Below are positions 14,400 to 64,000 of a DNA stretch of 64,000 bases, one piece after another. The translations under genes and the position numbers were made by a program. Each line of letters starts with the position of its first letter. Position 1 is the first letter of the stretch. The notes under the pieces are model-generated. The model saw only the letters and a program-made list of their open reading frames with translations. It made no database searches and was not told the DNA's origin. The DNA comes from an uncultured Lachnospiraceae bacterium (GTDB lineage: Bacteria > Bacillota > Clostridia > Lachnospirales > Lachnospiraceae), in contig CACZJL010000002.1 in NCBI GenBank assembly GCA_902781505.1, positions 1 through 64,000 of the forward strand. Direction: 5' to 3'.

Positions 14400-14428
14400 G
14401 TTTACGTATCAAGATAAATTGCCACGGA

Positions 14429-14465: not shown

Positions 14466-14473
14466 ATAATACA

Positions 14474-14513: not shown

Positions 14514-14514
14514 T

Positions 14515-14817
14515 ATGGCCAAATTAGACGAAGTGCTGATATGTAAGGCTCTTGGAGATCCCAACAGAATGGAAATAGTTAAGATGCTTTCTGATCAGGA
14601 GAAATGCGGATGTAAGCTTCTTGAAAAGTTTGATATTACACAGCCGACTCTCTCTCATCACATGAAGATACTTGTGGATTCGGGCTTGGTTAAAGACAGG
14701 AAAGAAGGTAAGTGGCACTACTATTCAATAAACACGGACATCATGAAGGAATTCTGTGGTTTTATAAAAACTCTCTGTAATGAAACCACCGGCAAGTGCT
14801 GTAAGGGAGAACCGTAA
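14515..14817 (+). CDS. ArsR/SmtB-family metalloregulator
   Basis: The 100-residue product is a winged-helix repressor: DPNRMEIVKMLS, then the recognition helix TQPTLSHHMKIL and the wing KEGKWHYYSI. EKCGCKLLEKF places a CxC pair at the site where ArsR proteins bind As(III), and a second pair, KCC, sits near the C-terminus. There is no ribosome binding site before the ATG at 14515, and the promoter suggests a leaderless message. No arsenite exporter follows; the convergent YeiH gene ends 27 bp downstream. It may be the last piece of a lost ars operon. Confidence 0.88.
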   Translation: MAKLDEVLICKALGDPNRMEIVKMLSDQEKCGCKLLEKFDITQPTLSHHMKILVDSGLVKDRKEGKWHYYSINTDIMKEFCGFIKTLCNETTGKCCKGEP

Positions 14818-14844
14818 TGTGGAACTTTATTCAGACTCAGGTCT

Positions 14845-15822: not shown

Positions 15823-15949
15823 CTCAAGACCTCTCTCACTTTCTAATCTGTTATTTCGCAGGTCTTATTCTATTCTGTCTTTTGAAAAAGATAAAATTAT
15901 ATATTATTATGTAACCATAAATATTTTTTATCGTTATGGAGAACTGATT

Positions 15950-16834
15950 ATGCTGGATTTCAGAATAGATACTTTCCTCTGCGTTTGCAGACACCTCAAT
16001 TTCACCAAGGCGGCTAAGGAGCTGAATATTACTCAGCCCGCTGTTTCTCAACACATACATCATCTTGAAAATGAATACGGGACAAAGCTGTTTACTCAGG
16101 ATGGAAAAAAACTTTTTCTAACTGACAACGGAAAACTCCTGTATAAAAAAATGAATCAGATAAAAAATGATGATGAAAGTCTCAAAGAAATACTTTCACA
16201 GAATAACCATGGCTTAAAAGACATCTCTTTTGGTGTCACCATGACCATAGGAGAATACATAATTGCTGATCCGATCAGTGATTACATAAAAAATCACCCG
16301 GATACTAATCTTAAGATTACATTTGGCAACACATCGGAGCTTCTTAAAAAACTCTCCGAGGGGGTTATAGATTTTACACTTGTAGAAGGATATTTTCCTG
16401 AAAATGATTATGAAACGCTGCTTTTTAGCAAAGAAGAGTTCGTTTCTGTCTGTTCGGCAAAGCACTCTTTCACTCAGAAACCGCGCGTGATAAAAGATCT
16501 CTTTCCCGAGCGAATTCTTATAAGAGAACCCGGTTCAGGAACGCGCAATATATTAGAAAGAGCTCTTGCCTTGAACAATTACTCTACAAGTGATTTTAGG
16601 AATTTTATCCAGGTGGAGAACATGCATGCCATAATAAGCCTTATTGAAAAAGACTGTGGCATCACCTTTTTATATAAAGCAGCGGTTGCATCCGGACTGC
16701 AGTCCGGATATCTGAAAACAATCCCCCTTGACGACTTTAGGGTAAAACATGATTTTACCTTCATCTGGCCAAAAGATACTGTTTTCAGTGAAGAGATCCG
16801 TGCAATATGTGAGGAAATCCTACCGGTGGCATAA
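15950..16834 (+). CDS. LysR-family regulator, likely controlling the YeiH gene
   Basis: The 294-residue protein has the LysR helix-turn-helix at the N-terminus (NFTKAAKELNITQPAVSQHI) and a periplasmic-binding-like effector domain from about residue 90 to the end. It is divergent from the YeiH gene, the same arrangement as E. coli yeiE-yeiH, and the effector domain resembles the CysB/CysL/YeiE side of the family. The ATG at 15950 follows TATGGAGAAC. Effector is inferred to be a sulfur anion but is not readable from sequence. Confidence 0.88.
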   Translation: MLDFRIDTFLCVCRHLNFTKAAKELNITQPAVSQHIHHLENEYGTKLFTQDGKKLFLTDNGKLLYKKMNQIKNDDESLKEILSQNNHGLKDISFGVTMTIGEYIIADPISDYIKNHPDTNLKITFGNTSELLKKLSEGVIDFTLVEGYFPENDYETLLFSKEEFVSVCSAKHSFTQKPRVIKDLFPERILIREPGSGTRNILERALALNNYSTSDFRNFIQVENMHAIISLIEKDCGITFLYKAAVASGLQSGYLKTIPLDDFRVKHDFTFIWPKDTVFSEEIRAICEEILPVA

Positions 16835-16899
16835 ACATTTTAGTAAAATGAATAACGATAAGCATACCTATTCTTAAAAAAGCATTTAATGAGGAAGAG

Positions 16900-17067
16900 A
16901 TGACCGCACTTGCATCATGGGACATATCAGATCTATGGGCGAACTGGCAGGGCGCATGTATCAATAGTGGAAGCATCTGGTTTAGGGATGTGGATACTGA
17001 AAAGAAAGAGTTTAAGATCGTTTCATTGTTTGATCTTAGAGAGGCTGGAGGAGAAATAACGGATTAA
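16900..17067 (+). CDS. Small hypothetical protein, possibly a gene fragment
   Basis: A 55-codon frame (MTALASWDISDLWANW at the start, SLFDLREAGGEITD at the end) looks coding-like and has GAGGAAG before the ATG. The frame stays open upstream to about 16845 without another start, so this may be the tail of a larger lost gene. No family is recognised. Confidence 0.4.
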   Translation: MTALASWDISDLWANWQGACINSGSIWFRDVDTEKKEFKIVSLFDLREAGGEITD

Positions 17068-17371
17068 TTAGAGCTGTGGGTACATTGTGAACCTTTGGTT
17101 TAAGTCCCGTGTGCTCCGCTAAGAAAGATATATTCGAAGATAATCATACAAAAGACAGACAAAGATTTAATGAGTAGAAAGTAAAATCAGAGTATTATTT
17201 TTGATCGCAGTTATTAAAGTTGCCATCAGTTGCATACAGTAGCCCTGAGCTTTCTACCGTACGCAGCAGGTAAACAGCAACTCGTCCTAGAAATGCCACA
17301 AACACAGCACTTAGGACATTGAAAAAGTTCTCAAAGAGATAAGTACAAAAAGCTCTCCTTGTGGGATTTAC
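17068..17371. other. Gene-free stretch
   Basis: I see no gene, RNA or clear repeat here. A stretch near 17095-17120 superficially recalls a tRNA T-arm but does not pair properly. Confidence 0.4.
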
Positions 17372-17405
17372 AAAGCTCTCCACTTTACGAAGTGGGGAGC
17401 TTTTT
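17372..17405 (+). terminator. Rho-independent terminator
   Basis: AAAGCTCTCCACTT-tacg-AAGTGGGGAGCTTTTT, with a T run. It lies directly before the intron remnant. Confidence 0.75.
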
Positions 17406-17407
17406 GG

Positions 17408-17628
17408 TTGTGCGCCAAGCCGCAAGGACTTAAATACCTTGGATTTGGGTTCTGTTTTGACTCAAGAGCACATCAGTTTAAGGCAAAACCACATGCGAAA
17501 GCAGTAGCGAAGTTTAAGAAGAGAATGCAAGAAATTACATGTCGTTTGAACCGCCGTGTACCGAACGGTACGCTCGGAGGTGTGAGGGTCGGAATTTCTC
17601 TTAATTGAGAAATTCCTCCTACTCAATT
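17408..17628 (+). mobile_element. 3' end of a group II intron: maturase tail plus RNA domains V and VI
   Basis: A reading frame from about 17408 encodes the end of an intron reverse transcriptase/maturase (YLGFGFCFDSRAHQFKAKPH, then AKFKKRMQEITCR). Starting at 17546, TTGAACCGCCGTGTACCG and the paired strand up to GGTGTGAGGG fit domain V. GGAATTTCTC-ttaatt-GAGAAATTCC at 17591-17616 with its flank CTCCTACTC fits domain VI and the intron 3' end. The 5' RNA domains and most of the protein are missing, so it cannot splice or move. It marks the change from AT-rich island to the higher-GC chromosome. Confidence 0.85.
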
Positions 17629-17691
17629 GCCGTCGACCGCCGCAGGGCCGTTGCCGCACCTTTGCACAAGGCGGTCGCCCTGTGTGGCCAT

Positions 17692-17720
17692 TTGCATTTT
17701 GCGTACGAAACCTCTATAAT
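17692..17720 (+). promoter_or_regulatory. Promoter for the metallophosphoesterase gene
   Basis: TTGCAT (17692-17697), 17 bp, TATAAT (17715-17720). The start codon follows 73 bp later. Confidence 0.7.
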
Positions 17721-17792
17721 TCGTAGGATAGTGGGGTTAAGAGCCGAGGCAGAATTTCTCATCGCGTCGTGCGGGAAAAGTAAAGGAGTTGT

Positions 17793-18893
17793 ATGATTGC
17801 ATTTCTTTTGGCCGCGGGAGCGGCAGTTATAGCTGCGCTGGTTGGCGTTGTCGTGATGACAAAAGCCATCAGTCGACTGGCTTTATTTCAGAAAATTAAA
17901 AATAAATGGATTCGCGGAATAGTTGCGGTTCTTGTGATTGCAGCCGTTATTTTTGTGACCAGTGAGGTCTGGACCATGGAAAATGCCGTGGTTGTGTTTG
18001 TTGCGTTTTTTGCTTTCTACGTGCTGTGTGCACTCCTTGCAAAGCTGGCAGAGAAAATCAGAAAGAAACAACTGGCACATGACCTGGTGTTCTTAGTGTC
18101 AGTAGGGCTTTCACTCATTTACCTTGGGGTCGGATTCTATCAGTGCAACCACGTCTTTCGTAAGGAATACAACCTGCATACAAACAAGGACGTAAGCTTA
18201 AAAATCGCGCTGATTGCGGACAGCCACCTGTCTGTGACGTTAGACGGCGAGAAGTTTAAAAAACAGATGGATCGCATCGAGGAAGAACAGCCGGATATTC
18301 TCGTAATTGCCGGTGACTTTGTCGACGACTGGTCAAAAAAAGAGGATATGCTTGCGGCGACGGAAGCGCTTGGAAAGATGAATTTAAAATATGGTGTTTG
18401 GTATGCATATGGAAACCATGATGTCGGCTTCTATAATTCCCGCGATTTCTCTGCAGCAGACCTTGAGCGTGCGTTAGAGGAGAATGGCGTACATATTTTG
18501 AGTGATGAGATGGCGGTTGTCAGTGACAAATTTGTTCTTGCCGGTAGGGATGATTATTCCACCAGCGGCAGCGGAGCGTACCGTTTGAAGACGGCAGAGC
18601 TTCTTGAAGGTGCTGATGAGGGCAAATACATTGTCGTTTTAGATCACGAGCCAAACGATTACGCGGACGAAGCCGCATCGAAAGCGGATCTGGTGCTGTT
18701 CGGACACACTCATGGTGGTCAGCTCGCGCCGTTTAACTACTTTGGTGAGTGGTTTGGAGTAAATGATAAAACCTATGGATATGAAAAGCGCAATAATACA
18801 GAATTTATCGTAACTTCAGGCATCTCCGACTGGAATCTGCAATTTAAGACCGGAACGCGCTCAGAGTACGTAATCATCAATATCGGAAAGTAA
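17793..18893 (+). CDS. Membrane-anchored metallophosphoesterase (YkuE/YaeI-like)
   Basis: The 366-residue protein has four N-terminal membrane helices (about 1-24, 42-58, 64-86 and 98-116) and then a calcineurin-type phosphoesterase domain. All metal motifs are visible: ADSH at 142-145, GDFVDD, YGNHDVGF, and FGHTHGGQ near the end. Such enzymes act on phosphodiester or phospholipid substrates outside or at the membrane. AAAGGAG precedes the ATG. The frameshifted patatin gene follows 13 bp downstream, so the two probably formed one lipid-related operon. Exact substrate unknown. Confidence 0.9.
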   Translation: MIAFLLAAGAAVIAALVGVVVMTKAISRLALFQKIKNKWIRGIVAVLVIAAVIFVTSEVWTMENAVVVFVAFFAFYVLCALLAKLAEKIRKKQLAHDLVFLVSVGLSLIYLGVGFYQCNHVFRKEYNLHTNKDVSLKIALIADSHLSVTLDGEKFKKQMDRIEEEQPDILVIAGDFVDDWSKKEDMLAATEALGKMNLKYGVWYAYGNHDVGFYNSRDFSAADLERALEENGVHILSDEMAVVSDKFVLAGRDDYSTSGSGAYRLKTAELLEGADEGKYIVVLDHEPNDYADEAASKADLVLFGHTHGGQLAPFNYFGEWFGVNDKTYGYEKRNNTEFIVTSGISDWNLQFKTGTRSEYVIINIGK

Positions 18894-49167: not shown

Positions 49168-49276
49168 CAGAGTCGAAAAATATGGAAAATCAGTGTTATC
49201 CTGCACGGGACAGGCATATAATGAGAGTAATGATAAGGGGAACGTGAGACGAAAAAAGAATAAAGGAGAATTTGCC

Positions 49277-50176
49277 ATGAGAAAAGTGGAACGACTTGAA
49301 GGAGTAATCCCTGCTCTGATCACCCCATTTACCGAGTCTGGCAGGGTAAATGGAAATGCGCTGATTGATCTGATGAAATGGAACTTAGGGCAGGGCGCAG
49401 TCTCGTTTTTTATCGGAGGCAGTTCGGCAGAATGTTTTCTGATGACGCCATCTGAGCGTATTGAGGCGATGGAAATTGCCGCACAGATGAAGGATGATGC
49501 GTATTTAATCGCGCATGTCGGTGCGATTTCTACTGATATCGCAATCGATTACGCAAAGCATGCGGTGGATTTAGGGTATGATGCGATTGCCGCAACTCCG
49601 CCATTTTACTATGGCTTTGGGCCAAAGGAAATCTACCAGTATTATTATGATCTGGCACAGGCAGCTGGAAAGCCGGTTCTGGTGTACAATTTCCCGGGCA
49701 ACACCGGTAAGAACTTTGATCTTGAGAATCCGATTTATCGGAAAATGTTTACGTCAGATTTTATTCTTGGTGTGAAGCATACGAACCAGATTGTGTACCA
49801 GTTAGAGCGTTTCAAGGCGCTGAATCCGAATTTGATTATGATGAATGGTTTTGATGAGACGTCGATTGCCGCGTATGCACTTGGTTGCGAAGGTTCCATC
49901 GGTTCGACCTTCAATTTTATGTATTACCACTATGAGGCAATTCGTGAAGCCTTCTATGCAGGAAAGGTGGAGGAAGCAAGAGAATTGCAGCATCGTGCGA
50001 ACAATATTATGAATGCGCTTGTGAATGTCGGCCTGTTCCCGGCTATCAAGTACATCTTAAATGAATGGGGATTTGATGCAGGCTCACCACGTCGCCCCTT
50101 CTTCCCGCTTGATGACGCATCGAAAACTGTTGTAGATACGGCCCTTGCGCAGAATCTTTTAAGAAAACCGGAATAA
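49277..50176 (+). CDS. N-acetylneuraminate lyase / dihydrodipicolinate synthase family aldolase
   Basis: The 299-residue protein is a class I aldolase barrel. The Schiff-base Lys167 is in LGVKHTNQ, Tyr137 in VLVYNFPG, and the carboxylate-binding loop is GGSSAECF near 47-54. Tyr and Lys positions are nearly those of E. coli NanA (137 and 165), and the YNFPGNTGKNF segment also favours the sialic acid lyase side, but no other sialic acid genes are adjacent. The ATG at 49277 follows AAAGGAG. An upstream in-frame ATG lies inside the previous terminator and is rejected. Confidence 0.85.
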   Translation: MRKVERLEGVIPALITPFTESGRVNGNALIDLMKWNLGQGAVSFFIGGSSAECFLMTPSERIEAMEIAAQMKDDAYLIAHVGAISTDIAIDYAKHAVDLGYDAIAATPPFYYGFGPKEIYQYYYDLAQAAGKPVLVYNFPGNTGKNFDLENPIYRKMFTSDFILGVKHTNQIVYQLERFKALNPNLIMMNGFDETSIAAYALGCEGSIGSTFNFMYYHYEAIREAFYAGKVEEARELQHRANNIMNALVNVGLFPAIKYILNEWGFDAGSPRRPFFPLDDASKTVVDTALAQNLLRKPE

Positions 50177-53286: not shown

Positions 53287-54066
53287 TTACTGCTTTGCAG
53301 TCAGACCGCCGTCGACGGTGAGAATCTGTCCACTGACAAATCCTGCGGCATCGCTTGCAAGGTAGATTGCAGCGGATGCAATGTCTGGCTTTTGTCCGAT
53401 TCTTCCAAGCGGGATACGATCTGTCAGGCTCTTAAAAAAGGCCGGATCGTCGAGCTGGAAGGAATTAATTGGAGTGCGCACGAAGGTAGGAGCGATGGCG
53501 TTCACATTGATTCCGTATTTGCCCCATTCGCAGGCAAGCTGCTTCGTGTACATGTTGACTGCGCCTTTGGTGGTGCAGTACGCGATATAATCTTTATCTG
53601 TTCCGATAAAGCTCTTCACAGATGATATGTTGATAATCTTGCCGGTTCGGGAAGGAATCATGAAGCGATGTCCGATGGCAATGGTCACCATGTGAAGAGC
53701 AGTGACATTGAGTTCCAGTACATCGTCAAATGCTTCCCTTTTGTATTCTTCAGCTGGCAGAAGTATGTTCTTGCCTGCGCTGTTGACCAGAATGTCGACC
53801 TGCCCGAATTCTTTTTCGAGCGTATCGCACATTTCTTCGATTTCTCCTTCTTTTCGAATATTGCAGGTGAGGAAGAGGCAGGTCCGACCCAGGCTTTTTG
53901 CTTCTGTAAGCACAGGGGCCGCCTTTTTCTCATCCGAGCCGATGATTGCCACGTCAGCGCCCATCAGCATGAATCCTCTTGCAATTTCAGAACCTAAACC
54001 GCCGGTACCACCGGTGATTAAGGCTTTTTTTTCTTCAAGAGAGAATAACTTCTCGTATTCGTTCAT
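53287..54066 (-). CDS. Short-chain dehydrogenase/reductase, gluconate-5-dehydrogenase/KduD-like
   Basis: The 259-residue NAD(P)-dependent enzyme has the nucleotide motif TGGTGGLG (residues 18-25), NSAGKN, and the catalytic Ser and YxxxK (NISSVKS, then YCTTK). PFVRTPINS-like APTFVRTPIN and the closing LTVDGGLTAKQ fit the gluconate 5-dehydrogenase and KduD group, which handle keto-sugar acids. It lies 47 bp after the YhcH-M28 fusion gene and is co-transcribed with it, so it probably works in the same catabolic pathway. Confidence 0.88.
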   Translation of the reverse strand: MNEYEKLFSLEEKKALITGGTGGLGSEIARGFMLMGADVAIIGSDEKKAAPVLTEAKSLGRTCLFLTCNIRKEGEIEEMCDTLEKEFGQVDILVNSAGKNILLPAEEYKREAFDDVLELNVTALHMVTIAIGHRFMIPSRTGKIINISSVKSFIGTDKDYIAYCTTKGAVNMYTKQLACEWGKYGINVNAIAPTFVRTPINSFQLDDPAFFKSLTDRIPLGRIGQKPDIASAAIYLASDAAGFVSGQILTVDGGLTAKQ

Positions 54067-54113
54067 AAAATCCTCTAGTTGTTTCCTGATGTCTCAACTT
54101 AAAGTTCAACTTT

Positions 54114-55583
54114 TCAGGAAAATGGCCAAAATTTCTTCTTTTTATCAGCAGAGTTAAGTCCCTCTGCCAGGTAATCCAGCACTTTTTGCATGGCCTGCGG
54201 TTCCACCCAGTCCGGGTTGTCGCGGTAACCGCCGTGCATTGTGGAAGCGACTTCCATGTCACCTTCCATCATTCGGAATTCCGGCGTTCTGCCAAGCAAT
54301 CCTTCGCCCTGTGCAGCCATTGCCTTCAGATACTGTACGTCCCAGCGCGGAATAATTGCGAGATTGAGCGTCGGGAACTTCTTTCTTAAAACGATATCGT
54401 CACTTTCCGGAAGGAATTTCACAACCTGTGCATTGTGAGCTGAGAGCAGGTCCGCATTGGCAAATCTGCTTAATGGCGCCTTTTTTTCGTGACCTTTGCC
54501 ACAGAGCACGATGGTATCTCCATATCCGCAAACGTCTAAGTTGATAATGCCCTGAATCTGAGTGGTGTCAGAGAACTCCTTTAAAAGGACTCTGGCGCCG
54601 GTGTGGCCTGATTCTTCACCATCTAAAAGGGCGAATTGTGCACGGGTTCCTTCTTTACTTAACCGTTTGAAAAGATCAATCAGGATGCAGATTGATGCAG
54701 CGTTGTCATTTGCCCCGAAAGAACCTGCTACGGCGTCATGATGAGCGCAGAAGAGGAAGATTGGAGCATCGATATCACTGCCGGCAGTTTCAAAAAGGAA
54801 GTTTACAACGCCCTGTGGATGTTCCTTCTCAGGGGCTGCTGTCTGCTTCCGGTAAGGGATACCTTCCGCTTTTAAGACTTCTTCCACTGCAGTAAGACGC
54901 GCTTCCTTTGTCTTCTGGGACAGGGTGAGAAGGTGTCTTGCAATGCCGGTCGGGTCTTCGTTTAGCGGAGCTGTTACGTCGCTCGAAGTATCGCCGGTTA
55001 GGGGGCAGTGGACTGCAGCGTCTGCAGTCGATTTCGCGATTTCTTCTTCGCGAAGCTTCTTATAAGAAGCGAGCTCTGCATATGGCAGGCAGGCCTCCAT
55101 TGGAACTTTAAGTACAATCTTACGGATTGGGGCTGGTTCGCTGCCGGCCTGAATGGCTGGAATGTGTACGTCCCATGGGAGATATACGGCATAGGTACCA
55201 ACATCAAGACGGATTCTGCCTTCGCGAACAGTGTCGTCTGTCTTGTACAAGAGGATGTCTCTTGGAGATTCTAAGAGATCTTCCTCCACGATGCCGGTGC
55301 CATCATCCGGGTAAAAACCTGCATCTTCAGGGCCACCGGCAGCTAAGAACTGCACATCGATATTCTTTCTGTGAATTTCCGGTCTCAGGGTTTCGCGAGG
55401 TGCGGTTACCTGATCTAAAACCTGGAGAATCATGTCGACTCCGCCGAGATTGATTTCGAACTTGCCAGGCTCGTGATTTGCGAGGTCTGTATCCTTAAGA
55501 TAATGGAGAGCATCGCAAAGTGGCTTTGGAAGCATGGATGCCTGCTGTTCGAAGAATTTGTCTTTTACGTTTCCTGTAATCAT
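54114..55583 (-). CDS. Fusion of a YhcH/YiaL domain and an M28 zinc aminopeptidase-like domain
   Basis: Residues about 1-165 form a YhcH/YjgK/YiaL (cupin-like) domain: EIHRKNIDVQFLAAG, YPDDGTGIVEE, PWDVHIPAI and RKIVLKV match its conserved His/Glu and Lys pattern. Residues about 205-480 form an M28 peptidase: metal ligands in CAHHDAV, GANDNAAS, LLDGEESGH, NLDVCGYGD and STMHGGYRD are all present. There is no signal peptide, so it is cytoplasmic. A stand-alone YhcH protein is encoded at 63304. The fusion suggests one chain hydrolyses an amide bond and processes the sugar released. AAAGGAG precedes the ATG. Confidence 0.85.
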   Translation of the reverse strand: MITGNVKDKFFEQQASMLPKPLCDALHYLKDTDLANHEPGKFEINLGGVDMILQVLDQVTAPRETLRPEIHRKNIDVQFLAAGGPEDAGFYPDDGTGIVEEDLLESPRDILLYKTDDTVREGRIRLDVGTYAVYLPWDVHIPAIQAGSEPAPIRKIVLKVPMEACLPYAELASYKKLREEEIAKSTADAAVHCPLTGDTSSDVTAPLNEDPTGIARHLLTLSQKTKEARLTAVEEVLKAEGIPYRKQTAAPEKEHPQGVVNFLFETAGSDIDAPIFLFCAHHDAVAGSFGANDNAASICILIDLFKRLSKEGTRAQFALLDGEESGHTGARVLLKEFSDTTQIQGIINLDVCGYGDTIVLCGKGHEKKAPLSRFANADLLSAHNAQVVKFLPESDDIVLRKKFPTLNLAIIPRWDVQYLKAMAAQGEGLLGRTPEFRMMEGDMEVASTMHGGYRDNPDWVEPQAMQKVLDYLAEGLNSADKKKKFWPFS

Positions 55584-55615
55584 GTAAAACTCCTTTCAAA
55601 ATTGCAAACCAATGC

Positions 55616-55669
55616 CGATTGTTCAAAACTGAGGACCAGCGTCGATTGCTCAAAACCGTGGACCAGCGT
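55616..55669. repeat. Tandem 27-bp repeat between the GntR and fusion genes
   Basis: CGATTGTTCAAAACTGAGG at 55616 and CGATTGCTCAAAACCGTGG at 55643 begin two adjacent 27-bp units that end in ACCAGCGT and differ at only three positions; a partial third unit follows. It sits in the leader of the fusion gene, 33-86 bp before its start. Confidence 0.75.
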
Positions 55670-55715
55670 CGGTCGAGATATTTGGCTGACGGTATTTGAA
55701 GTATCCCGGTTTGAA

Positions 55716-56417
55716 TCATTCAAAATATTCCGGGTGGGCTGTCTGAACCGGTTCGATGCTTTCTGTTAAGAAGGAACAGAAACGATTGAGTGCAGCACAG
55801 GCCCCGTCATCATCTTTTTCTGTCAGGCAGTTGATGATGTGTTCTAATTCACCGGTCAGTTTTCTTGCGTATTCTTTGTTTTCTGCAACCAGAACACAGA
55901 GTCTCTGAACATCGGACAGAGACAGACGCAGGGCGCTGTAGAGCTGTCTGTAGTCAGAACCTGCGGAATAAAGCTGCAGGAACAGATTCTTAAGTGAACG
56001 GAGGAATCTGTTCTGATCATTGGTGTCGAGTGCTTTATTAGCAGTGTCAGTTAAATATAGAAGAATTTTGATTTCTTCTTTTGGAATTCGGTTTAAATAA
56101 AAGTGGTGAATTATCTCGGTGGAGAAAATGTTAAAGACCCAGATTCCATCAAGAATTCTCTGTTTATTTAAGGTTCGGACTGTAAATCCACGAGATGGAG
56201 CGGATTCCAGAAGATGCTCGCGTTCTAAGCGTTCTAATGCATCGTGAACCGGTGTACGGCTGACTTCAAGCAGCCTTGCAAGTTCCGATTCACTGAGCCT
56301 GGTTCCGGGACCGAAGTCGAATCGGATGACAGCGCTCTGCAGAACACGGTATGCATATTGTCTGTTATCTTCTGAAGCTCTTTTGGGTGGAAAAAGTTCT
56401 GCGGAAATTGTATTCAT
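55716..56417 (-). CDS. GntR-family regulator (FadR-like), leftward arm
   Basis: The 233-residue protein has a GntR winged helix (RLSESELARLLEVSRTPVHD, LERLEREHLLES, SRGFTVRTL) and an all-helical effector domain of FCD type. It lies 133 bp upstream of the YhcH-M28 gene in the same direction and divergent from a second GntR gene. Two CTTGTATGC boxes lie 28-57 bp before its start codon, so it probably controls itself and the leftward genes. Ligand likely a small organic or sugar acid. Confidence 0.88.
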   Translation of the reverse strand: MNTISAELFPPKRASEDNRQYAYRVLQSAVIRFDFGPGTRLSESELARLLEVSRTPVHDALERLEREHLLESAPSRGFTVRTLNKQRILDGIWVFNIFSTEIIHHFYLNRIPKEEIKILLYLTDTANKALDTNDQNRFLRSLKNLFLQLYSAGSDYRQLYSALRLSLSDVQRLCVLVAENKEYARKLTGELEHIINCLTEKDDDGACAALNRFCSFLTESIEPVQTAHPEYFE

Positions 56418-56444
56418 GTTGTCACCACTCTTTCTGTCTCAAAA

Positions 56445-56474
56445 CTTGTATGCAGTTTTAAAGGGCTTGTATGC
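56445..56474. promoter_or_regulatory. CTTGTATGC pair near the leftward GntR gene
   Basis: Two identical 9-mers at 56445-56453 and 56466-56474, 21 bp apart (two helical turns). Likely GntR operator half-sites. Confidence 0.6.
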
Positions 56475-56613
56475 CCCTTCGATTACCATATAGCAAGTGC
56501 CCTAAAATACTAGGGTTCCCACCTCTATATCAAATTTTATCCATTTGTATGTGAAAATGCAACAAAAACTTTTATAAACTTCTGTCGAAAAATGCAAAAT
56601 TGATGTAAAAAAG

Positions 56614-56662
56614 CATTGTACATTTGTCCATGACATGATATATTCATCTCAGGTGATGAATG
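56614..56662 (+). promoter_or_regulatory. Possible rightward promoter
   Basis: TTGTAC near 56614 and TATATT near 56637 are 17 bp apart; ATTCATC-tcaggt-GATGAAT just downstream is a further inverted repeat. It would transcribe the second GntR gene and possibly the permease. Confidence 0.45.
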
Positions 56663-56708
56663 TATACTAGTTCACAAGTGTTGATGTGCACAAGCTGAAG
56701 CACAGAAA

Positions 56709-56750
56709 CTTGTATGCATCTGAAGTAGATGCGAATACCAGCTTGTATGC
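56709..56750. promoter_or_regulatory. CTTGTATGC pair near the rightward GntR gene
   Basis: Copies at 56709-56717 and 56742-56750, 33 bp apart (three turns), both extended to CTTGTATGCAT. Together with the left pair they make four sites in one 400-bp divergent region. Confidence 0.6.
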
Positions 56751-56815
56751 ATGTAGCAAAAAGAAGGTTTTTACATCGCCAACGCGTAAAAGTGAAAAGG
56801 ACAGGTTGATTAAAG

Positions 56816-57511
56816 ATGGATAAGGATGACATCTATGACATCTTAAAGCAGCGCATCTTATCACTCGAAGCAGTACCGTATGAGAAGATCAGCGAGAACA
56901 AACTTGCGAAAGAGCTAAATGTGAGCAGAACACTGCTTCGATCGGCCATTGCAAGACTTGAGGATGAAAACCTTCTCTACGTAGTTCCGCAATCCGGAAC
57001 GGTCGTAACACCAATCCGTTCAGAATATGTCGAGCAGACGATATTTGCCTCGATTACGATTCTGGGTAAGCTGATTGATGAGGTTTGTTCAAGAATCTGG
57101 ACTGACGAAGAACGGGCCAGGATGATTGAACTGCAGACTCAGATTTCACTTGGAATTGAACAGTCGAATGTCACAAGTGAAGAACGACTTGAGAGAGTTC
57201 TTGAACTGCGAAATCTTCTGATCCGCATGGGAGGGCACGAAGTCGCTGAGGAATTCTTAGATGTGATCAGCGGTGATTATTGGAGAACCTTGCAATTGCA
57301 ATATGAGACATTTTCCACGAGTGCAATTGCGTATCCAATGTCATTTTCGCAGAGAGCGGATATCATGTACCGGATGTTGATCGACTATCTGTTGAAGGGA
57401 GATGCAGTTGCGGCGAAGATGCTTCTGCAGGAATCTTACAACACGATGATTCTTCAGATGGAACACTTGAAACAGGTTAACCCAAGTTATTTTGCTGACG
57501 CCAGTCAGTGA
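56816..57511 (+). CDS. GntR-family regulator, rightward arm
   Basis: The 231-residue protein has a GntR winged helix (YEKISENKLAKELNVSRTLL, ARLEDENLLY, PQSGTVVTPI) and an all-helical C-terminal domain. It is divergent from the other GntR gene and lies 161 bp before the permease gene. Four CTTGTATGC boxes lie between the two regulators. It may control the permease and catabolic genes, in response to the substrate or an intermediate. The two regulators are distinct in sequence, so they are not a recent duplication. Confidence 0.88.
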   Translation: MDKDDIYDILKQRILSLEAVPYEKISENKLAKELNVSRTLLRSAIARLEDENLLYVVPQSGTVVTPIRSEYVEQTIFASITILGKLIDEVCSRIWTDEERARMIELQTQISLGIEQSNVTSEERLERVLELRNLLIRMGGHEVAEEFLDVISGDYWRTLQLQYETFSTSAIAYPMSFSQRADIMYRMLIDYLLKGDAVAAKMLLQESYNTMILQMEHLKQVNPSYFADASQ

Positions 57512-57672
57512 TAAATAAAAAAGAAACAATTGTAAAGGAGATGAGTAGAGAAGTACTAAAGCAAAGAATAAGAGAATTAACAAATGAATATGAACTGATG
57601 TAAAGAGAGAGAAAAAGTAACTTACTGACAAGCCTCAGGGCTAGATTTTTATTCTTAATCGAGGAGGATTAT

Positions 57673-59064
57673 ATGAGTTTTGTAATCGGTGTAATCTTAT
57701 TATTAACATTCTTTGGCCTCGCATATTATTGCATTAAAGGTCATAACTTAATGATTGGATTCCTTGTAATCACAATCATCTGGACAGCACTTCCACTTAT
57801 CGGAACACTGTTCGTAGACCAGACTTTCCTGGAAGCAAACAAAGTTCTTCAGTTTAGTGACATGAAAGGACTTGTAAAGATTTTAAACGGTATCTACCAG
57901 AGTGCACCAGAAGGATGGGGCACAACACTCGTAAACGTATGTTGGGGTGCTTGGTTTGGTCGTGTTCTTATGGACACAGGTATTGCTTCTACTCTTATTC
58001 GTAAGACAGTAGAACTTGGCGGTGATAAGCCAATTATTACAATTGCTCTTCTTAACATTGTAACTGCTATCATCTTCACATCTATGACAGGTGCTGGTCC
58101 TGTAATTGCTATCGGCGTTATCGTACTTCCTATCCTGTTCTCTCTTGGTGTACCAAAGCCAATCGCACTGTTCTCCTTCATGGGTTCCGTTGCAGCTGGT
58201 ATTTACCTTAACCCAGTTAACTTCGCTCAGTATCGTGCTTTCTTCATCAAGCCAGAAGAAATGCCTGACTTCACACTTGGTTGGTATGCTTCCAAGTGGG
58301 GTTATGCAGCATTCGGTATCATGCTTGTAGTAACAACTGTCTTTACAGGTATTTATCTCACAAGAAACAAGGCAAGACATGCATGGGCTGCTCAGTCCAG
58401 AACACCTCAGGCAGCGCAGAAGGATGCTCCGCTTTACACATTAATCCTTCCGGTTGTACCTGTAGTTCTTAACATCGCATTCAACTTCTCCGTAATCGGT
58501 GGTTTCGTAATCGCTGGTTTCCTTGCTCTCTTCCTTTGCGGAAGAATGACAGGAACATTCAAGGAGAACTGCCAGTTAGTTAACAAGCTTTACTACGATG
58601 GTGTTGTAGATACGGCTCCACTGGTAGGCTTCCTCTTAACTCTTCCAATGTTCAACGCTGTAGCTAAGTACGCATCTCCTTACTTCTCAGTAGTAATTGG
58701 CGATATCATGCCAAGATCTGAAATTGTTGTATGTATCGTATTTGCACTCCTTCTTGGCATGGGCCTCTTCCGTGGTCCTATGACTCTTGTAGGATGTGGC
58801 GCTGCTACACTTGGTGTATTAAGTAATGTAGCTTCTTTCTCAGTTCCGTTCCTTTATGCAGTATTCGCAATTCCAACAATTACTGTAAACATCGGTTCTT
58901 GTATCACTCAGTCCTGGGTTGCATGGGGACTTGCTTATTCTAAGGTAGAGTCTAAAGACTTCCTTAAGCTCTCTATTCCTAATGCATATGTTACAGGTAT
59001 CTTACAGTATGCAGCCATCATAATCTTCCTTGGTGGTCTTGGAGCTGAATGGTTCATCAAGTAA
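57673..59064 (+). CDS. Permease of the ion-transporter superfamily (GntP/CitMHS-like)
   Basis: The 463-residue protein has about 11-12 membrane helices with two long re-entrant-like segments rich in Gly/Ala/Pro: SMTGAGPVIAIGVIVLPILF and LVGCGAATLGVLSNVASFSV. This matches the general layout of organic-anion carriers of the GntP, CitMHS and NhaC-like families, though I cannot name the subfamily. GAGGAGG precedes the ATG. Directly upstream of the hydantoinase-like gene, it most likely imports the compound the locus degrades. Confidence 0.75.
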   Translation: MSFVIGVILLLTFFGLAYYCIKGHNLMIGFLVITIIWTALPLIGTLFVDQTFLEANKVLQFSDMKGLVKILNGIYQSAPEGWGTTLVNVCWGAWFGRVLMDTGIASTLIRKTVELGGDKPIITIALLNIVTAIIFTSMTGAGPVIAIGVIVLPILFSLGVPKPIALFSFMGSVAAGIYLNPVNFAQYRAFFIKPEEMPDFTLGWYASKWGYAAFGIMLVVTTVFTGIYLTRNKARHAWAAQSRTPQAAQKDAPLYTLILPVVPVVLNIAFNFSVIGGFVIAGFLALFLCGRMTGTFKENCQLVNKLYYDGVVDTAPLVGFLLTLPMFNAVAKYASPYFSVVIGDIMPRSEIVVCIVFALLLGMGLFRGPMTLVGCGAATLGVLSNVASFSVPFLYAVFAIPTITVNIGSCITQSWVAWGLAYSKVESKDFLKLSIPNAYVTGILQYAAIIIFLGGLGAEWFIK

Positions 59065-59080
59065 TTCAATTGAATCTGAT

Positions 59081-59109
59081 CTGCCAGGTGCGAAGAGCAC
59101 CTGACAGGT
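59081..59109 (+). terminator. Hairpin between permease and hydantoinase genes
   Basis: CTGCCAGGTGC-gaaga-GCACCTGACAGG, followed by a weak T run; it may lower readthrough or stabilise the upstream message. Confidence 0.55.
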
Positions 59110-59238
59110 TTATCTAATCTCTTAAAATCAGTTTAAAAAGCATTTTTCGTTTTAGTACATTCTACTCATTTTTTTTGCTACCGATTGTTGATTCGGAAGA
59201 AGTGAACCGAATCTTGAATCAGAAAGGAATTGATAAAC

Positions 59239-61380
59239 ATGGCAGAACAGGAACGCAGAGCCGTCCGCATGGGAATCGACGTAGGCGGTACTTATACCAA
59301 GTGCGTGGCTATGGATAATCTCACCCATGAAATTATCGGCAAAAATGAAGTTAAGACAACACATGATGACAAAGACGGTGTTGCAGCTGGTGTAGTACAG
59401 AGCTTTAAAAATTGTATGGCAGAGAATGGAATCCGGCCTGAAGACGTTGTCTTCGTAGCGCATTCCACAACACAGGCAACAAACGCTTTCATCGAAGGTG
59501 ACGTTGCGAACGTAGGTGTCATCGGTGTAGCCGGTGGCGGTTTAGAAGGACTGCTCGCTAAGAGACAGTTAGCTTTGAAAGATATTGTTCTTGATCCCAA
59601 GACAGACAAAGTAATCAAGATCTTTAACGCATACATTAAGAAAAAAGAACTTACAGAAGATGTAATCAACTCTACCGTTGAAGAGCTCTGCAACAAGGGT
59701 GCAAAGGTATTAGTTGCTTCCATGGCATTCGGTGTAGACTCCATGGATGAAGAAATGATGATTCACGATGTAGCTGCGAAGGATGGCCTTCCGGTAACAA
59801 TGGCATCTGATATTACAAAGCTGTACGGTCTGACAAGACGTACACGTACCGCTGCAATTAACGCATCCATCCTTCCAAAGATGATTGCAACAGCTAATGC
59901 TACGGAGAATTCCGTAAGAGATGCTGGCGTTAAGGTTCCTCTCATGATTATGAGAGGTGACGGTGGTGTTATGGAAATTAATGAGATGAGAAAGAGACCT
60001 ATTCTTACAGCTCTTTCCGGTCCTGCAGCTTCCGTAATGGGTTCCCTGATGTATCTTCGTGCTTCCAACGCTATTTACTTCGAAGTAGGTGGTACAACAA
60101 CAAATATCGGTGTTATCAAGAATGGCCGTCCAGGTGTTGACTATGCTCAGATCGGCGGACATGACACATACATCTCATCTCTTGATGTACGTATTCTTGG
60201 TTGTGCCGGTGGTTCCATGGTTCGTATCAACGACCATGAAGTAGTAGACGTAGGTCCTCGTTCTGCTCATATTGCAGGATGTGAATACGCGTGCTTCACA
60301 CCGGAAGAAGAAATCGTAGATCCACAGATCGAAATGGTAAGTCCAAAGCCAGGCGATCCGGGCGATTACGTTGTAATCCGTCTTGCTTCCGGCAAGAAGA
60401 TCTGCTTCACAAATACAGATGCGGCTAACGTTTTAGGCCTCATCGATGAAAAGTACTTCGCACATGGTAATGCAAACGCAGCAAGAAAGGCAATGCAGCC
60501 AGTTGCTGATAAGCTTGGCATTACAGTAGAAGAACTTGCTACTCAGATCCTTGAGAAGGACTATGAGAAGGTTAATGCTTGTATTAATGCTCTTGCTGAT
60601 AAATATCAGTTAGACCATGACGCTATGAAGCTCGTAGGTTGCGGCGGTGGCGCTGCTTCCTTAGTTCCATACTGCGCTAAGAAGATGGGACTTCAGTACT
60701 CCATTCCTGAGAATGCCGAAGTTATTTCCTCCATCGGTGTGGCTCTTTCCATGGTTCGAGACGTAGTAGAGCGAGTTATTCCAAATCCTTCCCAGGAAGA
60801 TATCCGCGAATTAAAGAAGGAAGCTACAGATGCAGCTATTTCTTCCGGTGCGGCACCTGATACTGTAGAAGTTCACGTTGAAATTAACGCTCAGACTTCT
60901 AAGGTAACAGCGATTGCAACAGGTTCTACAGAAGTTAAGACAACAGACCTCTTAAAGGAATGTGATGAATCTGAAGCTGAGCAGTTAGCAAAGGAAGACT
61001 TTGGTCCAACTGTATCTAACATCACACTCAGCGATAAGATTGATAAGTTCTATGTATATCAGGGCGAGAAGGATGGCAAGAAGCCAATCCGTATCGTAGA
61101 TAAGAAGGGCTTTATCAAGGTTCAGGCTTCTGACGCATTAGTTAAGAAGTGTAAGATCAGTGAATATGAAGACGTTGTAGCACAGATGTGGGAAGAGGGA
61201 GCAATCTTTAAGACAGACTCTATCATCCGTCCTGATTACTTCGTATGCTTCGGTCCTCGTGTAACAGACTACTCCGCAGTAGATCTTGAGCAGGTTAACC
61301 TTCTTATGGACCTTGACCTTGGAGACCGCGAGCCAGATGAAGAAATCATCGTTGTCGGTGCATTAAACGACGTAGGCTAA
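59239..61380 (+). CDS. HyuA-type hydantoinase/oxoprolinase family ATPase
   Basis: The 713-residue protein has the Hydant_A N-terminal domain (GIDVGGTYTKCVAM, VFVAHSTTQATNAFIEG) and the catalytic domain (LMIMRGDGGVMEINEMRKRP, LSGPAASVMGS, IYFEVGGTTTNIGV). HyuA-type enzymes use ATP to open lactam or hydantoin rings, often with a HyuB partner. HyuB is not in the window. The last 150 residues go beyond the usual domain. The ATG at 59239 follows AGAAAGGAATTG. It probably activates or opens the imported substrate. Confidence 0.85.
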   Translation: MAEQERRAVRMGIDVGGTYTKCVAMDNLTHEIIGKNEVKTTHDDKDGVAAGVVQSFKNCMAENGIRPEDVVFVAHSTTQATNAFIEGDVANVGVIGVAGGGLEGLLAKRQLALKDIVLDPKTDKVIKIFNAYIKKKELTEDVINSTVEELCNKGAKVLVASMAFGVDSMDEEMMIHDVAAKDGLPVTMASDITKLYGLTRRTRTAAINASILPKMIATANATENSVRDAGVKVPLMIMRGDGGVMEINEMRKRPILTALSGPAASVMGSLMYLRASNAIYFEVGGTTTNIGVIKNGRPGVDYAQIGGHDTYISSLDVRILGCAGGSMVRINDHEVVDVGPRSAHIAGCEYACFTPEEEIVDPQIEMVSPKPGDPGDYVVIRLASGKKICFTNTDAANVLGLIDEKYFAHGNANAARKAMQPVADKLGITVEELATQILEKDYEKVNACINALADKYQLDHDAMKLVGCGGGAASLVPYCAKKMGLQYSIPENAEVISSIGVALSMVRDVVERVIPNPSQEDIRELKKEATDAAISSGAAPDTVEVHVEINAQTSKVTAIATGSTEVKTTDLLKECDESEAEQLAKEDFGPTVSNITLSDKIDKFYVYQGEKDGKKPIRIVDKKGFIKVQASDALVKKCKISEYEDVVAQMWEEGAIFKTDSIIRPDYFVCFGPRVTDYSAVDLEQVNLLMDLDLGDREPDEEIIVVGALNDVG

Positions 61381-61408
61381 AGAAAAAAGAGTATTGGATT
61401 CAGCATGG

Positions 61409-62194
61409 ATGGGCAGCATGGATAGAGAAGAATTTAAGAGACTGATGAAACCTATTGCAGACGGATTATTCGGAAAGCAACAGGGACCAAGATACGAGAA
61501 ACCACATTATACAGTACGTCCATTGAATGAGATGCTTAAGGAGCTCGCGAAGGTGGAAACGGTTGATTATTACCGTTACGCCTTCTCGCGGGATCCGATT
61601 AATGGCAAGTTCACAGATGAACAGAGAAAATCGTGGGCTAAAGAAGCTGTAAAGTGCGGTAAGGAATATGCACAGAAAATCAGACAACAGTACAGCACAA
61701 GCGAGATTCAGACAATCGCAAAAAAGCTGGGACTTGATGTCAGATATCCGGATTTCCCGAACAAGACGGACCGTGTCCTCTTTGCAGAGTTTCACGAACC
61801 AAATATTGTGGAAATCTATATGGATGCCATGAAGAAAGCGGATAAGTTTCTGAAAGATGAGAGTATTTCCGCTATTATGAAAGGGCATACAAAGGTTTCA
61901 AAAATAATTCTCGCGCATGAAGTGTTCCACTATGTTGAAGAGAAATATTCAAAAGAAATATTTACACAGACGGAAAAGACCAGACTTTGGTCCATCGGCC
62001 CGGTACATAATGATTCCAAAGTGATTGCAATCAGCGAAATCGCTGCCATGGCATTTGCCGAGGAAATAAATGAGTTGGCATTTTCCCCGTATATCCTGGA
62101 TGTGTTAATGGTTTACGGCTATGATCCGGAAGAAGCCAGTGGACTCTATGAAGAAATATGTGGATATTTTGACAAGGAGGGGTTACAGGCGTGA
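61409..62194 (+). CDS. Putative zinc metallopeptidase-like protein (HExxH), family unknown
   Basis: The roughly 261-residue protein holds a clear HEVFH motif in KIILAHEVFHYVEEKY (about residues 170-174) followed some 40 residues later by ISEIAAMAFAEEI, a place where a third, acidic ligand could stand, as in COG2856/ImmA-type zinc proteins. The first 120 residues are helical and basic with a tract KKLGLDVRYPDFPN. Start is uncertain between 61394 (TTG), 61409 and 61418. The stop overlaps the yiaK-like start (GTGA). No homologue name comes to mind; a hydrolase or maturation factor of the pathway is the inference. Confidence 0.65.
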   Translation: MGSMDREEFKRLMKPIADGLFGKQQGPRYEKPHYTVRPLNEMLKELAKVETVDYYRYAFSRDPINGKFTDEQRKSWAKEAVKCGKEYAQKIRQQYSTSEIQTIAKKLGLDVRYPDFPNKTDRVLFAEFHEPNIVEIYMDAMKKADKFLKDESISAIMKGHTKVSKIILAHEVFHYVEEKYSKEIFTQTEKTRLWSIGPVHNDSKVIAISEIAAMAFAEEINELAFSPYILDVLMVYGYDPEEASGLYEEICGYFDKEGLQA

Positions 62195-63240
62195 GTATTA
62201 AAGTGCCATTTAGCGAGTTAAAAGAGACAGCAAAGAAGGCGTTTTTAAATTTAGGTTTGAGTGAGGAGAAGGCAGAACTTTGTGCCACAATTCACACAGA
62301 ATCCTCGGCAGATGGAGTTGAAAGCCACGGTATGAACCGTATCCCAAGATTTGCCGAGTATGTTCAGCAAGGACTGATTGATGTAAATGCAGAGCCAGAG
62401 CTCGTGAGTGCCAAGGGTGCCTGCGAGAATTACGATGGCCATATGGGCGTTGGCGTGGTAAATGCTGTATTCTGCGCAGACAGAGCGGCTGAGCTTGCCA
62501 AAGAGCACGGCATCGGACTGGTTGCATTAAAGAATACAACCCACTGGATGCGTGGTGGTGCCTATGCATGGCGTATGGCATACAAGGGATATTTCGGAAT
62601 CAGCTGGATTAATACAGAAAGCTGCATGCCAATGTGGGGTTCTGATGAAGCCAGTGTTGGTAACAATCCATTCTGTATGGCAATTCCAAGAGAAAAGGGA
62701 CCAATCGTTGTTGATATGGCGATGAGCCAGTACGCATACGGAAAGCTCGGCGTTTACCGCCTTGCAGGTAAGGAATTACCTTATCCGGGTGGCTTTGACA
62801 AGGATGGTAACTTGACCTCTGACCCAGGCGCAATCGAGGAATCCAAGCGCATTCTTCCAACCGGTTACTGGAAGGGTTCATCCCTTTCCATCGCACTTGA
62901 CCTTGCAGCAGCAATGCTGGCAAATGGCCGCACCGGTCTTGATATGGACCTGGCGAATGAAGGTTCCTGCGGCGGTTGCTGTCAGATTTTTATTGCAATC
63001 AATCCATATTTGTTCGGTGAGAAGGACGCGACGCAGGCTAAGCTTGATGCAAGAGTTGCAGCAGCAGATGCAGCTCATCCACTGGATCCAAAGCATCCTG
63101 TAAGGTGCCCTGGCGAATCTACTATTGCCCGTCGTGAAGCAAGTATGAGAGACGGCGTAACGGTTGATGAGCAGATTTATGCACAGATTCAGCAGCTTGC
63201 AGCTGGTGATTTAAATGTAACTGATATCGCAAGTAAGTAA
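62191..63240 (+). CDS. 2,3-diketo-L-gulonate reductase, YiaK/DlgD type
   Basis: The 349-residue enzyme belongs to the Ldh_2 family of NAD(P)H-dependent 2-keto-acid reductases. Fixed points with E. coli YiaK are VESHGMNRIPRF, GIGLVALKNTTHWMRGGAYA, PGGFDKDGNLTSDPG and ILPTGYWKGSSLSIALD, closer than to malate or ureidoglycolate enzymes. It starts with GTG at 62191 after AAGGAGGGG, overlapping the HExxH gene. YiaK reduces 2,3-diketo-L-gulonate in ascorbate and L-lyxose-type breakdown; here the true substrate is unproven. The YhcH (YiaL-type) gene follows as in the yia operon. Confidence 0.85.
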   Translation: MSIKVPFSELKETAKKAFLNLGLSEEKAELCATIHTESSADGVESHGMNRIPRFAEYVQQGLIDVNAEPELVSAKGACENYDGHMGVGVVNAVFCADRAAELAKEHGIGLVALKNTTHWMRGGAYAWRMAYKGYFGISWINTESCMPMWGSDEASVGNNPFCMAIPREKGPIVVDMAMSQYAYGKLGVYRLAGKELPYPGGFDKDGNLTSDPGAIEESKRILPTGYWKGSSLSIALDLAAAMLANGRTGLDMDLANEGSCGGCCQIFIAINPYLFGEKDATQAKLDARVAAADAAHPLDPKHPVRCPGESTIARREASMRDGVTVDEQIYAQIQQLAAGDLNVTDIASK

Positions 63241-63254
63241 CAAAACATATAATC

Positions 63255-63277
63255 CCCTCGGCCCTTCGGGGCCAGGG
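63255..63277 (+). terminator. UUCG-capped hairpin between yiaK-like and yhcH genes
   Basis: CCCTcGGCCC-ttcg-GGGCCaGGG with no T run. An exceptionally stable hairpin that may protect the upstream message end or set gene ratios instead of ending transcription. Confidence 0.6.
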
Positions 63278-63303
63278 AACTCTATAATTTGGAGGAAGAG
63301 ACC

Positions 63304-63756
63304 ATGTTTTTTGCAAATATTTCTATTGCAGAGAAGTATGACTATTTAGATGAGAAGTTCCGTGCAGCTTATAAGTGGCTTGCCGAAACAGATATTAAGT
63401 CTTTAGAGCCTGGCACATACCCAATCCTTGGTGAGCAGGTATACGCAAGTGTTCAGGAATATGAGACTGAACCAAAGGAGAAGAGATCCTTTGAAGCACA
63501 CAAGAAGTTCTTTGATATCCAGTATATGGTAACTGGTGATGAGATGTTTGGTGTGTGCAAAGAAGAAGGCTTAAAAGAGACAGAAGCACACGATGACAAG
63601 GACCTGTACTTCTATGAGGAACCAGCACTTTCCGGTGAGGTTCTTTTAAAGGAAGGCGATTTAATCGTTGTAGCACCAGAAGATGCTCATAAGCCAAGAT
63701 GTGCAGCAGGAACACCTGCAGCTGTTAAAAAAGTAGTAGTAAAAGTAGCGCTTTAA
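63304..63756 (+). CDS. YhcH/YjgK/YiaL family protein
   Basis: The 150-residue cupin-like protein carries the family pattern: EAHKKFFDIQYMVTGDE (Glu/His/Asp ligands), LYFYEE and PEDAHKPRC with VKKVVVKVA at the end. Members act on sugars or sugar acids, perhaps as isomerases or anomerases, and in E. coli YiaL stands beside YiaK as here. The start at 63304 follows GGAGGAAGAGACC. A related domain forms the N-terminal half of the fusion at 54114. Confidence 0.9.
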   Translation: MFFANISIAEKYDYLDEKFRAAYKWLAETDIKSLEPGTYPILGEQVYASVQEYETEPKEKRSFEAHKKFFDIQYMVTGDEMFGVCKEEGLKETEAHDDKDLYFYEEPALSGEVLLKEGDLIVVAPEDAHKPRCAAGTPAAVKKVVVKVAL

Positions 63757-63776
63757 TTTCAAGGAGGAAGATAACC

Positions 63777-64000
63777 ATGCAGACAGTATACGATTTAGGA
63801 AACGGAATGAGACTTGTAGATCTCTCAAAGTTAGTAGATCCAGCAACAGAGACAAGAAGATGTAAGCTTGACCGCTTCAACACAGGCGGCCCAATCCCTG
63901 ATTTCCACACAAACTTTGATATCATGAGCCATTTAGGAACTCATGCAGAGTGCCCTTATCATCATGATGATAACTGGCCGGATGTAACAGCACTTCCACT
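63777..64000 (+). CDS. Cyclase-family metal-dependent hydrolase (cut by the window end)
   Basis: The visible 74 residues contain DLSKLVDPAT at the start and MSHLGTHAECPYHHD, the HxGTHxxxPxH metal-binding motif of the cyclase family (kynurenine formamidase, isatin hydrolase and polyketide cyclase relatives). AAGGAGGAAG precedes the ATG. Enzymes of the family hydrolyse cyclic or formyl amides and lactones, which fits a pathway with a HyuA-type protein. The remainder lies outside the window. Confidence 0.85.
   Translation, partial: MQTVYDLGNGMRLVDLSKLVDPATETRRCKLDRFNTGGPIPDFHTNFDIMSHLGTHAECPYHHDDNWPDVTALP

Follow-up and report, generated by a model that had tools for sequence, protein, structure and literature searches.

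The window analysed here (the whole stretch of 64,000 nucleotides, equal to bases 1–64000 of contig CACZJL010000002.1 of a 1.89 Mb genome that is 98.76% complete) carries near its end a conserved gene cluster, the core of which consists of a permease, a HyuA-type ATPase without HyuB, and a paired protein with an HExxH motif. Our best explanation, held tentatively, is that HyuA and the HExxH protein form a predicted two-part, ATP-dependent enzyme that opens an amide-, lactam- or lactone-type bond of a substrate which is likely imported and likely a sugar acid. Gene content, pairing, clade, motifs and repeats were computed; genes were called as open reading frames (ORFs), with Pfam and NCBIfam matches as support. 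A preliminary description of the window had listed the genes of the cluster as an undescribed catabolic locus. Beyond that description, the HExxH protein is the partner of a particular HyuA clade, HyuB is absent, and the three core genes are the unit.

The permease-HyuA-HExxH trio is the unit that recurs across the phylum, and the other genes are changing surroundings. Fifty-seven loci were mapped, 56 of which contain HyuA; the remaining one (L056) is a contig fragment with the HExxH gene, and the HyuA of its genome (G240) sits on a separate contig (L078) and was not counted. A partial second HyuA of genome G384 at a contig end (L101) was also excluded, and so were the second HyuA copies, both cut, that occur in L008 and L009. 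The HExxH gene lies on the same strand within 300 nt of HyuA in 47 of the 56 loci and within 4 kb in 54 of them; it was not found at the other two (L099 and L100), both of which contribute to the 57 module HyuA sequences discussed below. The permease gene lies on the same strand within 300 nt of HyuA in 54/56 loci and at 631 nt in L156, and was not found at L068. At L068 (genome G253) the HExxH gene is a fragment with an in-frame stop inside the match and the HyuA is intact; the close relative L064 has the whole HExxH gene. Even where the HExxH protein has diverged to about 20% identity, its gene in most cases continues to adjoin HyuA and a permease homologue, in surroundings that are quite different.

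HyuA and the HExxH protein hardly ever occur apart. Among 150 genomes from the own family, the clade HyuA and the HExxH profile were each found in 17, and these were identical genomes (Fisher p 9e-23, kinship ignored). The 23 HyuA and 23 HExxH copies are paired one to one, and in every pair the HExxH match lies 6–215 nt downstream of the HyuA match on the same strand, measured between the ends of the matches. The profile used (A2) was built before these genomes were drawn, from the window and the loci and proteins of earlier scans, some of which loci may belong to the own family. In the phylum (398 genomes), HyuA was present in 22 genomes, the HExxH protein in 21 and both in 20 (Fisher p 1.9e-30, kinship again ignored). 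The exceptions are G029 and G318, which have permease and HyuA with no HExxH protein detected, and G396, which has a weak HExxH match (E 4.8e-5) and no HyuA. That the HExxH protein, so strictly paired in the own family, also works as the functional partner of this HyuA clade is put forward as part of the whole explanation given above and with the same reserve.

The HyuA of the window had been called a lone one, and it is indeed the single HyuA match in its genome, where no match to HyuB (PF02538) was found. HyuB is present in 34 of 199 phylum genomes, and in only one of the 21 HExxH-bearing genomes, at about 1.08 Mb from the module. Conversely, 18 stretches around HyuB (17 distinct loci, since L098 and L171 overlap) contain a HyuA-like ORF, and neither the HExxH protein nor this permease was found in them by profile. 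These data bear on the possibility that the HExxH protein serves in the assembly or processing of HyuA (metal insertion, proteolytic maturation) and stays outside the catalytic cycle. Such a role would agree with the pairing and with the predicted, possibly IrrE-like fold, and also with the faster change of the HExxH sequence, which in close relatives is 47–59% identical to that of the window versus 80–91% for HyuA. However, at the 17 loci where a HyuA-like gene adjoins HyuB no such protein is encoded nearby, and no obvious conserved cleavage tail is seen in HyuA by eye, and we regard a purely auxiliary role as doubtful.

The module HyuA is a separate clade. In a tree made with a quick method, with long branches and a midpoint root, the 57 module HyuA sequences and 14 HyuB-partnered ones (L098 and HyuA ORFs outside 600–800 amino acids (aa) left out) are split by one branch with an SH-aLRT value of 100. 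The two groups have D17, H78, N85 and the GPxS motif in common, and the D17 of the phosphate-1 motif DxGGT is found in 57/57 module sequences (the names phosphate-1 and phosphate-2 follow the available part of the caprolactamase paper PMC8453981). They differ in the phosphate-2 motif, which is DxGGT in HyuA-HyuB enzymes and EVGGT in the HyuA of the window: E285 is present in all 57 module sequences versus Asp in 14/14 HyuB-partnered ones. T43, D244 and H347 also distinguish the module group, as does R242 (57/57 versus 1/14). Residues after about 510 gave no Pfam match.

A different reading of these motifs is that the clade HyuA is an ASKHA-fold small-molecule kinase, which phosphorylates the imported sugar acid without any bond hydrolysis, with the HExxH protein only maturing, loading or protecting HyuA. 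The ASKHA-type domain with its ATP motifs is kept, Glu replaces Asp in the phosphate-2 motif throughout the clade, HyuB is absent, and permease and HyuA occur without a detected HExxH protein in two genomes, all of which would suit a kinase. In addition, the close relatives have no kinase gene between the core genes, and a ROK-like ORF was seen by eye at the far end of L006 and L007. Against this, a 2-keto-3-deoxygluconate (KDG) kinase already stands beside the core in L064, L068, L139, L142 and L143, where a second kinase could be redundant, and the 23:23 pairing together with the invariant metal motif (see below) suggests a catalytic role of the HExxH protein. Overall, we consider the kinase unlikely, and of the alternatives the least so.

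The HExxH protein itself has no Pfam match above cut-off and no NCBIfam match. At E≤10 only Spherulin4 (0.03) and UBA_6 (0.19) appeared in Pfam, PF06114 (the ImmA/IrrE family model) was not matched, and homologues are labelled 'hypothetical protein' in databases. H175, E176, H179 and E215 are invariant in 19 HExxH proteins. In a comparison of the predicted fold the best rows were IrrE/PprI, followed by entries titled transcriptional regulator; Foldseek alone, run on the model, returned nothing at E≤0.001.

The permease has no Pfam family even at E≤10. Its homologues are labelled 'citrate transporter' by their sources, distant members show weak matches to CitMHS, GntP or Na/H antiporters, and the best hit of a weak PDB profile search was the isethionate transporter DctMQ of the tripartite ATP-independent periplasmic (TRAP) type (E 0.003). 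A low-confidence model (pLDDT 64) matched TRAP SiaQM, NaCT and VcINDY, which serve as leads only. From this weak sequence similarity and the low-confidence model, the permease is likely a member of the carboxylate/sialate/citrate transporter superfamily. A permease cluster that is 86% identical (P0242) carries the name of Eubacterium pyruvativorans, reportedly (going by the title of a reference) a non-saccharolytic organism that ferments pyruvate and amino acids, for which an acid substrate would be more fitting than a free sugar.

How the core could work is suggested by caprolactamase. According to the part of PMC8453981 that is available, CapA (HyuA) presumably phosphorylates the oxygen of the lactam, after which the activated substrate would pass to the metal site of CapB (HyuB) for hydrolysis. 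We propose that the HExxH protein stands in the position of CapB, and we infer the complex, the metal, the reaction and the substrate as follows. The permease would import a carboxylate, the carbonyl oxygen of which would be phosphorylated by HyuA at the cost of ATP, as thought for CapA. The HExxH protein, replacing HyuB/CapB, would hold zinc on H175, H179 and E215, and water would split the activated bond. The resulting keto acid ring could be opened by YhcH, and the redox state of the keto acid adjusted by YiaK, the short-chain dehydrogenase, and the PanE-like and zinc dehydrogenases; side forms with an amide or lactone bond may be cleaved by M28 and the cyclase, and the route would end in pyruvate-type products through the action of an aldolase or lyase. 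The divergent operons would be switched by GntR proteins at CTTGTAT sites. The amide or lactam in the substrate is predicted from the usual roles of the HyuA, M28 and cyclase families.

All genes that the preliminary description had listed, the two divergent GntR genes included, are present as ORFs, with Pfam or NCBIfam support for all but the permease and the HExxH protein (Table 1). The locus is longer than had been described: it runs about 4.5 kb past the end of the window, to about 68520, and there includes the end of the cyclase gene, a PanE-like reductase, a third GntR gene on the other strand and two zinc-dependent dehydrogenases. YiaK scores 379 bits versus the 316-bit cut-off of PRK13260 (3-dehydro-L-gulonate 2-dehydrogenase). 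The forward-strand YhcH is above the cut-off of the YhcH/YjgK/YiaL subfamily, and reaches 104 bits versus the 160-bit cut-off of N-acetylneuraminate anomerase. The best NCBIfam match of the short-chain dehydrogenase is PRK08213 (234 bits, under its cut-off of 279), and the NanA-like lyase reaches 261 bits versus a cut-off of 281 for N-acetylneuraminate lyase. None of the PDB matches of the cyclase, M28 and zinc dehydrogenase proteins names a substrate. The G+C content of the window is about 0.35–0.42 at positions 1–18000 and 0.41–0.55 at 18001–64000.

Table 1. Features of the locus, with positions counted from the first base of the window.
Feature	Position	Strand	Family matches and remarks
NanA-like lyase	49274-50176	+	outlying, 3 kb from the short-chain dehydrogenase gene; only possibly part of the system
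Short-chain dehydrogenase, gluconate 5-dehydrogenase-like	53287-54066	-	PF13561/PF00106; nearest PDB entry gluconate 5-dehydrogenase
YhcH (DUF386) and M28-type hydrolase in one 489-aa ORF	54114-55583	-	PF04074 (residues 1-160), PF04389 (residues 268-387)
GntR-family regulator 1	55716-56417	-	PF00392
398-nt gap between divergent GntR genes	56418-56815		four CTTGTATGC repeats
GntR-family regulator 2	56816-57511	+	PF00392
Permease, core gene 1	57673-59064	+	likely carboxylate importer of the ion-transporter superfamily
HyuA-type ATPase without HyuB, core gene 2	59230-61380	+	PF05378 and PF01968; EVGGT phosphate-2 motif
HExxH...E protein, core gene 3	61394-62194	+	predicted, possibly IrrE-like fold
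YiaK-type keto-acid reductase	62191-63240	+	PF02615; NCBIfam PRK13260
YhcH	63289-63756	+	PF04074; likely anomerase of a keto-sugar acid
Cyclase-type metal-dependent hydrolase	63777-64469	+	PF04199; first 224 nt inside the window; equals L002:10778-11470

Co-occurrence of the genes elsewhere had been proposed as a check, and the locus recurs in 13 close relatives, as expected for a conserved catabolic locus. This close set was defined by a HyuA 80–91% identical to that of the window; a contig scan with the HExxH protein gave 12 loci, of which 11 were kept (HyuA 80–90%), and two were added from the own family. The twelfth (L015) has a HyuA that is only 60% identical and stands outside the set. 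Within the 13, the HExxH gene is present in all, a full-length permease in 12 (the short permease ORF of L012 being scored as absent), YiaK in 12, M28 in 12, forward-strand YhcH (≥60% identity) in 11, opposite-strand YhcH (≥58%) in 10, the cyclase in 9, the zinc dehydrogenase (≥66%) in 9, and the short-chain dehydrogenase and PanE in 8 each. A homologue of the NanA-like lyase (46–54%) lies within the locus in four.

The fusion of YhcH and M28 that had been reported is real as a single ORF, but it is not a trait of the system: among the 12 close relatives that carry M28, one of which (L136) belongs to the same genus, no ORF combines the two, and they are separate neighbouring genes in relatives that have both. 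The fusion was therefore rejected as a key feature. Horizontal arrival from Lachnospiraceae, a guess from the 90% identity of HyuA to that of L004, was also rejected, as the own family has the HyuA clade in 17 of 150 genomes. In L008 and L009 (L008:16921-20757 and L009:16861-20739) a second permease copy, 45–46% identical, comes after the first locus, accompanied by divergent GntR and M28 genes of its own, and is cut by the end of the locus; in L008 the beginning of another HyuA lies behind it.

Further away from the window, the neighbours of the core change. In the half of the clade that includes the window (29 loci), YhcH was found in 14, YiaK in 12, KDG kinase in 5, HxlA and HxlB in 4 and Eda in 3. 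In the other half (27 loci) a flavin adenine dinucleotide (FAD)-dependent oxidoreductase is found in 18, so that the core chemistry is probably more general than a single sugar acid. In L064, L068, L139 and L142, KDG kinase, HxlA and HxlB (hexulose-phosphate synthase/isomerase type) adjoin the HyuA core, an odd mix of the KDG and ribulose monophosphate types. A protein of 225 aa that belongs to no Pfam or NCBIfam family (L062:11826-12503, minus strand) lies near the core in 8 of the 27 loci of sub-clade B, the FAD-oxidoreductase form, and a DUF4127-type protein stands beside the module at two loci (L072:4883-6382 and L150:952-2466).

The sugar-acid theme of the preliminary description holds up in the window, with the YiaK equivalog, YhcH, the gluconate 5-dehydrogenase-like enzyme and the lyase seen in some close relatives, and also in some more distant relatives, where the core has KDG kinase, Eda and HxlA/B as neighbours. 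For E. coli, YhcH is described in the accessible part of PMC8141875 as a Zn-containing anomerase that feeds NanA. This raises the question whether a 2,3-diketo-L-gulonate/ascorbate (yia/ula) or sialic acid (nan) pathway has merely been regrouped here, HyuA and the HExxH protein being side genes. The YiaK score, the membership of YhcH in the YiaL/NanQ family, the NanA-like lyases and the resemblance of the low-confidence permease model to sialate TRAP transporters would fit such an origin. On the other hand, the single match to the OMPdecase family (PF00215) in the own genome lies within a pyr operon and reads as PyrF, and 3-keto-L-gulonate-6-phosphate decarboxylase was not found. Likewise, NanE (N-acetylmannosamine-6-phosphate epimerase, PF04131) had no match in this nearly complete genome. 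The NanA-like lyase and YhcH stay under the curated equivalog cut-offs, and the core trio occurs elsewhere without YiaK or YhcH. A regrouped known pathway is thus improbable: the diketogulonate route looks incomplete in the own genome, and both textbook routes lack a required enzyme there. In line with what had been supposed, no described pathway with this gene set was found in a literature search. The NanA-like lyase, in a genome without detected NanE, may have another keto-sugar acid as its true substrate. One Eda-family aldolase and two FGGY kinases are encoded elsewhere in the genome, and an Entner-Doudoroff-type ending is therefore possible.

Four CTTGTATGC repeats (at 56445, 56466, 56709 and 56742) lie in the gap between the divergent GntR genes, out of five copies on both strands of 73 kb. 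CTTGTAT was found in 9/9 corresponding divergent gaps measured in relatives (a dummy row of L009 was dropped, and L008, L011 and L012 were outside the measured set). The repeats are likely GntR operators, and we take the CTTGTAT sites to resemble the gluconate repressor site of Bacillus. The regulators beside the core vary in family among loci (GntR by match; ROK, LacI-like and LysR-like partly by eye). A link between regulation and the core would exist if the HExxH protein were a sensor protease of the ImmA/IrrE kind, which cuts or frees a local repressor upon arrival of the substrate. Both the fold comparison, with IrrE/PprI first and transcriptional-regulator entries next, and the three GntR genes at the window locus point in this direction, but the constant neighbour of the HExxH protein is HyuA and not a regulator of one family, which makes a sensor protease very improbable.

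Returning to the two-part hydrolase, we propose, with still more caution than for the locus itself, that HyuA and the HExxH protein constitute an ATP-dependent two-component hydrolase of a new class, with a zinc protein of IrrE fold in the place of HyuB. Together with the importer it would be a portable module for substrate entry, placed by many anaerobes of the Clostridia type ahead of different catabolic routes, for sugar acids in one half of the clade and with the FAD-oxidoreductase in the other. The literature search found no description of a HyuA that has an HExxH protein as partner; the protein named 'HyuA' in PMC12507026 is, in the portion of that paper available, unrelated to the present one and is an amidohydrolase. 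For enzymes of the oxoprolinase and hydantoinase types, HyuA and HyuB are both assumed to be required, a rule that would be wider if the present pair is catalytic. In that case the label 'hydantoinase/oxoprolinase family' would have to be reconsidered for many proteins of anaerobes; a search scored at least 7,994 homologues at E≤0.001, counted without regard to clade. Should the pair turn out to be non-catalytic, the HExxH protein would be a near-obligate helper of HyuA. In addition, the substrate becomes findable, with the trio as a fixed three-gene kit and the CTTGTAT sites as a reportable promoter.

The system can be compared with several known ones. With the yiaKLMNOPQRS/ula gene set of E. 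coli it shares YiaK beside a YhcH/YiaL-family gene, but it has one permease in place of the TRAP set and is built on the HyuA-HExxH core, and UlaD/SgbH was not found in its genome. It resembles nan operons in YhcH and, at some loci, a NanA-like lyase, and departs from them in that core, in the missing NanE and in the scores of lyase and YhcH under the equivalog cut-offs. The acetone and acetophenone carboxylases also use a HyuA-type phosphorylating subunit (weak NCBIfam and PDB matches), whereas here the genome has no HyuB-type subunit (PF02538). IrrE, PprI and ImmA metalloproteins have the HExxH motif with a downstream Glu and perhaps a core fold similar to the predicted one; in contrast, the present protein gives no PF06114 match and has HyuA, not a helix-turn-helix repressor, as its constant partner. 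There is also a likeness to the HyuA-HyuB enzymes (5-oxoprolinase, N-methylhydantoinase and the caprolactamase CapAB), with which the system shares a HyuA subunit with the phosphate-1 motif and GPxS, a second, predicted metal-binding protein encoded alongside, and, by analogy, an expected ATP-driven opening of an amide-like bond. It differs from them in the unrelated HExxH...E partner that stands where HyuB is absent, in the phosphate-2 Asp to Glu exchange, in the part of HyuA after about residue 510, in having its own permease, and in its sugar-acid or FAD-oxidoreductase neighbours.

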